A DNA stretch of 36,463 bases from Oscillospiraceae bacterium (GTDB taxonomy: Bacteria; Bacillota_A; Clostridia; Oscillospirales; Ruminococcaceae), in the NCBI GenBank assembly GCA_017829075.1, contig JAGAJA010000062.1:1-36463 (forward strand), given 5' to 3'. The position numbers were made by a program, and so were the translations under genes. Below are positions 26,110-36,463 of the stretch, one piece after another (positions within the stretch are counted from its first letter, which is position 1; every line of letters starts with the position of its first letter). The notes under the pieces are model-generated. The model saw only the letters and a list, made by a program, of their open reading frames with translations, did no database searches and was not told where the DNA came from.

Positions 26110-26660
26110 GTAAATTGGAATTTGTCGGGCGAATACATTTCCGCTTGTGGCACAGCGCGAAGCGCAATTGTTTTTCGCTTCCTTTTGGCTTCCAAAAGGA
26201 AGCGGGGTGTGGGGCAGCGCCCCACCACTCAGCGCGGCAGCGCATAAACGCGTCAGAAGCGCTAAAGGGGTTCGGGGGAAAACAAGAGTTTTCCCCCGGT
26301 CTGTGGCTGCTTACAGCAGCCACAGACAACTATTTCGCCGCGCGTTTTCGGAGGGGGCTTGCAACTCTCCCTGTCAGATTTGCATCTCCAAATTAAAACG
26401 TATCACACATTATATAGGAGTTTGTCAATGTCTGCTCCGCAGTCATTGACAGGGGGAAAACTCTTGTTTTCCCCCTGTTACCCCTTTAGCGCCTCTTACG
26501 CGTATAGCGGCGCTCCGCGCCGAGTAATGCGCTGCCGCGCGAGTGGTGGGGCTTTGCCCCACACCCTACTTCCTTTTGTGCCAAAAGGAAGCGAAAAGCA
26601 TTTTCCGCGCTTCGCGCGGAAGTCGCTGGCGGGCGTACCCGCCGACAAATTCCAATTTAC
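26110..26660 (+). repeat. Complete multi-hairpin repeat element, copy 2 (~551 bp)
   Basis: Bounded by 19-bp perfect terminal inverted repeats GTAAATTGGAATTTGTCGG (26110-26128 and 26642-26660). In order inside: a 12-bp stem GCTTCCTTTTGG (26177-26203), GTGGGGC/GCCCCAC (26209-26225), CGGGGGAAAAC/GTTTTCCCCCG (26273-26298), GTCTGTGGCTGC/GCAGCCACAGAC (26299-26327), a 96-nt core (26328-26423), then GTCAATG...CATTGAC (26424-26450), GGGGGAAAAC/GTTTTCCCCC (26452-26475), GTGGGGC/GCCCCAC (26546-26562), CTTCCTTTTG/CAAAAGGAAG (26569-26591), TTCCGCGC/GCGCGGAA (26603-26621) and GGCGGG/CCCGCC (26628-26643). The arms mirror each other around the core. No reading frame is conserved between copies. The last 4 bases overlap the response-regulator gene. 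Confidence 0.88.
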
Positions 26661-36044: not shown

Positions 36045-36463
36045 GTAAATTGGAATTTGTCGGCGGGTACGCCCGCCGGCGACTTCCGCGCGAAGCGCGG
36101 AAAAATGCTTTTCGCTTCCTTTTGGCACAAAAGGAAGTAGGGTGTGGGGCAAAGCCCCACCACTTGCGCGATAGCGCGCTACTCGGCGCGGCAGCGCCGC
36201 TATACGCGTAAAAGGCGCTAAAGGGGCGCGGGGGAAAACAAGAGTTTTCCCCCGGTCTGTGGCTGACTGCGGCAGCCACAGACAACTACTTTGCCGCGCG
36301 TTATCGGTGTGGTATTGATACTATTCCGGTCATATTTTCCCTACGAAATTACAACTTGACAAAACTTTTCACGGGAATATGTCAATGCCTGCTCCGCAGT
36401 CATTGACAGGGGGAAAACTCTTGTTTTCCCCCTGTGACCCCTTTAGCGCTTCTGACGCGTTTA
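36045..36463 (+). repeat. Multi-hairpin repeat element, copy 3 (cut by window end)
   Basis: Starts with the same terminal repeat GTAAATTGGAATTTGTCGG (36045-36063). Hairpins follow in the order GGCGGG/CCCGCC-type, TTCCGCGC/GCGCGGAA, CTTCCTTTTG/CAAAAGGAAG, GTGGGGC/GCCCCAC, CGGGGGAAAAC/GTTTTCCCCCG, GTCTGTGGCTG/CAGCCACAGAC (about 36257-36283), a 97-nt core (36284-36380), GTCAATG...CATTGAC (36381-36407) and GGGGGAAAAC/GTTTTCCCCC. The arm next to the GTCTGTGG hairpin is of the type that lies on the opposite side in copy 2. The core is only about 60% identical to that of copies 1 and 2, apart from a conserved GCCGCGCGTT stretch. Confidence 0.85.

Follow-up and report, generated by a model that had tools for sequence, protein, structure and literature searches.

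A modular, probably mobile and non-autonomous hairpin repeat family with a triplex-type core in Oscillospiraceae

What kind of object is a 551-bp stretch of DNA built as a mirrored ladder of hairpins between inverted repeats? Such a stretch lies at 26110-26660 of contig JAGAJA010000062.1 (assembly GCA_017829075.1, an Oscillospiraceae bacterium), whose 36,463 nucleotides were analyzed whole and are called the window here. A sequence-only reading had left three answers standing, namely a non-autonomous transposon, a structured RNA or a chromosome-architecture site. The features located in the window are given below with strand and basis (TIR, terminal inverted repeat).

26110-26660, no strand: whole mirrored element, 551 bp (TIR edges; alignment to other copies and single units)
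26110-26128, plus: left 19-bp TIR, GTAAATTGGAATTTGTCGG (inverted-repeat analysis)
26642-26660, minus: right 19-bp TIR (inverted-repeat analysis)
26110-26329, plus: left single-unit ladder (79-85% identity to eight G002 single units)
26418-26660, minus: right single-unit ladder, opposite orientation (75-85% identity to eight G002 units; 92% to the left arm of copy 3)
26176-26204, plus: ladder hairpin, 13-bp stem (perfect-hairpin search)
26209-26225, plus: ladder hairpin, 7-bp stem (perfect-hairpin search)
26259-26297, plus: left core, consisting of GCGCTAAAGGGG, spacer and hairpin (perfect class I triplex motif at 26264-26296)
26299-26327, plus: tail hairpin, 13-bp stem (perfect-hairpin search)
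26328-26422, no strand: unique middle, approximate limits (direct reading)
26411-26426, plus: decayed inner TIR (81% like 26111-26126; alignment to single units)
26423-26451, minus: tail hairpin of the right unit, one mismatch (inverted-repeat analysis)
26452-26492, minus: right core (perfect class I triplex motif at 26453-26487)
26546-26562, minus: ladder hairpin, 7-bp stem (perfect-hairpin search)
26569-26591, minus: ladder hairpin, 10-bp stem (perfect-hairpin search)
26603-26621, minus: ladder hairpin, 8-bp stem (perfect-hairpin search)
1-358, minus: copy 1, cut by the contig start (blastn; class I motif at 176-210)
36045-36463, plus: copy 3, cut by the contig end (blastn; class I motifs at 36220-36252 and 36410-36444)

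The 19-bp ends that had been described as perfect are indeed 100% complementary (26110-26128 against 26642-26660). The estimate of about eleven hairpins also holds: defining a perfect hairpin as one with a stem of at least 7 and a loop of 3-5, we found eight in the 551 bp, and counting weaker stems as well (26423-26451, which has a single mismatch, and some short GC-rich stems) gives about eleven. Perfect hairpins are concentrated in the repeat: of the 29 in the whole window, the three copies (1,328 bp together) contain 19, and the remaining 35,135 bp contain 10. The predicted RNA fold energy of 26110-26660 was -368.8 kcal/mol against a shuffled mean of -191.4 (z -27), and the DNA fold gave z -29; both values are strongly negative mostly because the element is a long inverted repeat. 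As had been read, the arms mirror each other (69% alike when the element was compared with itself by blastn, 78% over 212 aligned columns) around a unique stretch at about 26328-26422, and three copies occur in the window, copies 1 and 3 being truncated by the contig ends. The contig thus begins (1) and stops (36463) inside element copies, which is expected if the repeats broke the assembly. Three ORFs of 100-105 aa overlap the element, but their frames are disrupted by indels between the aligned units, and they are probably not coding sequence. A check of the window against Rfam, which had been suggested as a possible refutation, returned 0 matches at gathering score.

The ladders share a near-invariant piece of 39-41 nt, GCGCTAAAGGGG-N3-5-GGGGGAAAACAAGAGTTTTCCCCC, which combines a palindrome with a mirror and has the form of a class I intrastrand-triplex motif. 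AAAGGGG within the GCGCTAAAGGGG tract is the mirror of the duplex strand GGGGAAA and, with the pyrimidine arm, the core runs in the order third strand, purine, pyrimidine, the order that PMC4666352 gives for class I. A strict search with a threshold of 7 perfect triplets found class I sites in the window at the five complete arms only and 0 in 100 dinucleotide shuffles; over all the loci collected, 45 of the 46 distinct class I sites are the core and one is a diverged copy. Counted on copies found by the hairpin alone, with 5 edge copies left unscored, the GCGCTAAAGGGG tract is exact within 24 nt 5' of the hairpin in 106 of 112 distinct copies and has one mismatch in 3, while the invariance of the core hairpin itself is partly ascertainment, since it was used to find the copies. 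In the diverged copy the third strand and the duplex are shortened in step, and in copies with a longer A tract the third strand has no matching change; support for a triplex from covariation is therefore mixed and slight. The core may fold as a triplex and may have a function; for the E. coli motif, neither duplex DNA nor footprinting in vivo is reported to have indicated a stable triplex (PMC4666352). Three loci of genomes G009 and G006 (L038, L051, L081) have a second mirror module, AAAGGGGTTTGGGG-AAA, after the core hairpin, which may have arisen from the triplex motif as a tandem derivative.

Nucleotide searches established that the element is not confined to GCA_017829075.1. The 24-nt core hairpin, searched as an exact string in one genome per species (84,980 species), matched 97 stretches, and the 80 of these that were listed fall in eleven genomes labeled as Oscillospiraceae, Ruminococcus sp. 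or uncultured Clostridia, in line with the taxon guessed in the sequence-only reading. With blastn, each of the eleven also gave between 2 and 101 matching pieces of the element. Closest to the window among them is G002 (KsgA 92% identical). Of 43 genomes in the G002 genus, 12 contain the exact core pattern, with 1 to 43 cores each, and G004, outside the genus list, carries it as well; 43 exact cores were counted in G001, 38 in G003, 7 in G006 and 5 in G007. More widely, 394 genomes sampled from the order included two with the exact core, neither of them a new carrier, and among 119 genomes of the G003 family G003 was alone in having it. Searches of phages and plasmids with the whole element, and of viral contigs with four patterns, returned no match.

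The single units of G002 suggest a reading of the mirrored form. There the basic unit is one ladder of 254-275 bp with a TAAATTGTAATTT-type TIR at each end, and both arms of the window element align with such units along their length. The left arm is closer to eight G002 units (79-85%) than to the right arm (78%); the same eight units are 75-85% identical to the right arm, six of them more so than the left arm is, and the right arm is 92% identical to the left arm of copy 3. Moreover, a decayed form of the inner end of a unit (26411-26426) follows the last hairpin of the right arm. By these alignments and this remnant, the mirror form corresponds to two different units placed tail to tail, and the 551-bp element reads as a composite of two single units whose inner TIRs have apparently decayed. 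Mirror forms of 602-650 bp were also found in G003.

The ends are shared by more than ladders. TIRs of type AAATTNNAATTT bound units of about 50-650 bp at many unrelated sites: in G002 an 84-bp hairpin and a 370-bp element without ladder, in G521 elements of 115 and 268 bp, in G513 elements of 151 bp and in G003 a series from 51 to 650 bp. The 370-bp G002 element (e.g. L220, L221, L222) occupies many sites with nearly identical copies. The exact TIR pattern occurs in 16 of the 43 genus members, but only G002, G003, G521, G513 and G011 have more than two sites. G001, G006 and G007 have no site of it despite their ladders, so this TIR cannot explain the ladders there; either those ladders have other ends, or ladder and TIR are separate things that were joined in the group of G002, G003 and the window. 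Three G001 loci (L020, L025, L052) show ladders flanked by short CAGTGTATAGTGAATAGTAAGAAGTGC-type repeats, a kind of end unlike that of the window.

Conservation drops at the TIR edge in 65 distinct flanks, retained from 92 sites after dropping those with a repeated flank or sharing no 10-mer inside. Outside the TIR the flanks are C-poor, with a purine adjoining it, and the first TIR base is T in 82% and the second A in 92%. Joined flanks of six G002 loci were queried in the genus, scoring up to six candidates per genome, in search of empty sites. At L056 the element is missing from three other species that align through the junction; measured against the matched part of the flanks as joined, their stretches are longer by 17, 56 and 55 bp. 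At L030 both flanks lie 53 bp apart in G003 and the element is absent, the junction itself being unaligned. Three more loci matched on one flank only, and the sixth gave no match outside G002 among the matches listed.

These results favor one of the three readings. TIRs at the 65 flanks, a site that is empty in three related species and many copies in several genomes all support a non-autonomous transposon, and we consider it likely that the repeats form a modular, non-autonomous, MITE-like mobile family with a triplex-type core, moved in trans. We do not claim membership among the MITEs proper, since no target duplication was observed beyond a possible TA, and a parent was sought and not found. 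No direct repeat outside the TIR rose above chance. Could it nevertheless be a TA-specific MITE of the IS630/Tc1-mariner kind? The TA at the outer edge of most ends would fit, but only 35 of 84 TIR pairs, a set that includes some chance pairs, have TA at both ends, and of 8 genomes G521 alone has DDE_3, with no AAATTNNAATTT-type end nearby; we regard this origin as unlikely.

The behavior of the hairpins bears on the second reading. Units carry a mean of 3.6 perfect hairpins (110 units) against 0.12 in shuffles, and the ladder hairpins vary in sequence and mostly remain paired. Elements occupy orthologous positions in two pairs of genomes, G006 with G009 and G007 with G009, where stems have changed on both sides and whole hairpins were replaced or added; units at the same place in different species show that long inheritance also occurs, which we counted against the mobile reading. 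For the tail hairpin of the group formed by the window, G002 and G010 (15 distinct sequences, six bulged 30-nt variants excluded), 97.8% of cells are paired against 88.5% in shuffles and 19 cells are changed on both sides against 5.5, values that 0 of 500 shuffles reached in either case. Neither the number of pairs with a double change (4; 193 of 500 shuffles reach it) nor that of pair types (7; 449 of 500) exceeds the shuffles, and 7 of 12 pairs are invariant. Compensatory changes, which had been proposed as the sign of a functional structured element, were thus found, but template switching at hairpins could also produce them; as in other bacteria, it can yield the same pattern without selection. 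Locus L005 has an extra hairpin between the upstream tract and the core hairpin. Two loci, L270 (G011:C68) and L021 (G002:C38), agree in one flank, at 99% identity, and at the beginning of the element, and differ in the remainder and the other flank, which may be due either to recombination between two elements or to a chimeric contig in one of the MAGs.

Could the ladder then be transcribed at gene ends, as a 3' UTR stabilizer, an RNase III substrate or a non-coding RNA, with selection on the RNA keeping the stems? The paired stem changes would agree with this, and so would the position of the ladders, which often adjoin gene ends. The window element starts directly behind a terminator-like site after ksgA, and G002 has an element at the matching place after ksgA, cut by a contig end. 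Genomic context was counted with a simple codon-based gene caller, requiring genes within 700 bp on both sides of the core, which 64 of 126 distinct cores have (usable flanks n = 77); the count takes both arms of mirror elements, and the background gaps include element gaps. In tandem contexts 16 copies run with the gene direction and 15 against it. A hint of sense orientation behind genes came from seven copies of G006, which resemble sense 3' regions by eye among the matches listed; neither the overall count over all genomes nor a cruder count confirmed it. Besides this lack of strand preference, the fixed core is of the purine-motif triplex design, which PMC4666352 reports not to form in RNA, the window has no Rfam match, and the number of cores varies from 0 to 43 per genome within one genus. 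The structured RNA thus found no positive support here, and we hold it to be improbable.

The same counts touch on the third reading, a chromosome-architecture or topology site of BIME kind in which the ladder, placed where convergent genes end, would bind gyrase, HU or a similar protein. In its favor, 27 of the 64 copies have convergent neighbors, against 42 of 157 background gaps (p 0.037), and the core is invariant. But 31 of the 43 genus genomes have no exact core, and the bias is weak; selection against insertion into promoters could produce it, which makes this reading more doubtful still. Divergent neighbors are rarer at the copies (6 of 64) than at background gaps (39 of 157; p 0.0097), which we count in favor of the mobile family.

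Nor was a mover evident. Among the matches listed for G002, G010, G011, G521, G003, G513, G260 and the 43 genus members, no transposon-like TIR pair was found that could be an autonomous parent. The one candidate TIR pair, 2.98 kb in G009, was discarded, as read by eye its ends belong to type I restriction specificity genes beside a tyrosine recombinase; this locus (L354, G009:C26:3000-8600), with inverted specificity genes around the recombinase, is likely an invertible specificity locus. Pairs of cores 1.1-3.6 kb apart were likewise rejected as transposons, since by eye they enclose what look like ordinary host genes. DDE_Tnp_1 occurs in 6 of 8 genomes, none with these ends; a broken DDE_Tnp_1 gene of G006 has one AAATCGGAATTTG about 0.6 kb away. 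A multi-copy parent could be missing because the genomes are MAGs that break at these repeats. That a Y1 (RAYT) transposase moves a REP-like element by reading the GCGCTAAAGGGG tract and hairpin is highly improbable: a conserved single-stranded tract does stand 5' of a conserved hairpin, and inverted pairs do exist, but the units of G002, G003 and the window bear TIRs, and Y1_Tnp was found in 2 of 12 genomes only, in each case fragmentary or with a broken frame; G001, G003 and G006, which have 43, 38 and 7 cores, gave none.

Returning to the mobile, MITE-like family, we propose that an enzyme acting in trans would recognize the palindromic ends and move the units. During replication the hairpins may fold on single-stranded DNA, and so may the core, in which AAAGGGG would be the third strand and GGGGGAAAAC/GTTTTCCCCC the duplex; the folded structures could stall or re-route the polymerase, and template switching would then add, drop and re-perfect hairpins. 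Such a model would account for a fixed core beside neighboring hairpins that change in matched pairs and are gained or lost entire. We also count for this explanation the excess of hairpins in the units over shuffles, the double-sided stem changes and the whole hairpins gained or lost at orthologous sites, the near-constant GCGCTAAAGGGG tract, and the confinement of class I motifs in the window to the complete arms. A bolder version, to which we assign a low probability, sees in the fixed core a DNA device that forms a triplex on single-stranded DNA at the fork, the stalling driving both the copying of units and the birth, loss and exchange of hairpins.

How does the family compare with known repeats? 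The BOX elements of Streptococcus pneumoniae (boxA-boxB-boxC) are described in PMC3049150 as modular and hairpin-forming, 67-637 bp long, with TIRs and many copies in few species, and are thought to be parasitic. Compared by description only, our repeats are like them in being modular, hairpin-forming, TIR-bearing and multi-copy in few species, and the upper length of BOX makes the statement that the element is far larger than ordinary ones too strong. They differ from BOX in their many different hairpin modules, mirror composites and triplex-type core, and in target duplication, which that paper reports for BOX and of which no more than a possible TA was observed here.

The core is most like the intrastrand triplex motifs, or PIT elements, including E. 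coli boxC (TM_ECO), which PMC4666352 describes as short, highly conserved, repeated and intergenic, without strand bias; tests of the E. coli motif found no promoter or terminator activity. Shortness, conservation, repetition, intergenic position, lack of strand bias, frequent inverted pairs and a purine-motif triplex design are common to both. TM_ECO, however, is class II (hairpin, then third strand) and our core class I (third strand first), and TM_ECO is reported there as not associated with mobile elements, whereas here the motif lies inside TIR-bounded units.

Bacterial MITEs such as RUP and Correia have TIRs, no conserved frame, many copies and no transposase of their own, and our repeats resemble them in all four; RUP is the example taken from PMC3049150. 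The differences from MITEs are that size and module number vary here (about 50 to 650 bp), that there is no clear target duplication and that no parent was found. REP/BIME sequences with RAYT are also intergenic palindromes that form inverted pairs, but the ladder is much larger and, in G002, G003 and the window, TIR-bounded, and a search of 12 genomes yielded no intact Y1 gene. The anatomy thus works like a modular MITE/BOX-type repeat, and the unusual part is the triplex-type core inside a mobile unit. By title and abstract, we found no paper in the open-access literature on this repeat family or on a triplex-type core in a mobile unit, and the core and hairpin strings had no match there.

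In practical terms, such repeats break MAG assemblies, as at both ends of the window contig and at no fewer than 22 contig starts of G002 among the matches listed. If the core is indeed a DNA device, this would be a mobile repeat that spreads or diversifies through non-B DNA structure and not through a classical cut-and-paste parent. The family unites modular mobile repeats (BOX, MITEs) and conserved intrastrand-triplex motifs, known apart until now, and places triplex-type cores in units whose hairpin modules can be compared across species and at orthologous sites, which makes it a testable system for the birth of structured DNA, its turning into perfect palindromes and its spread.
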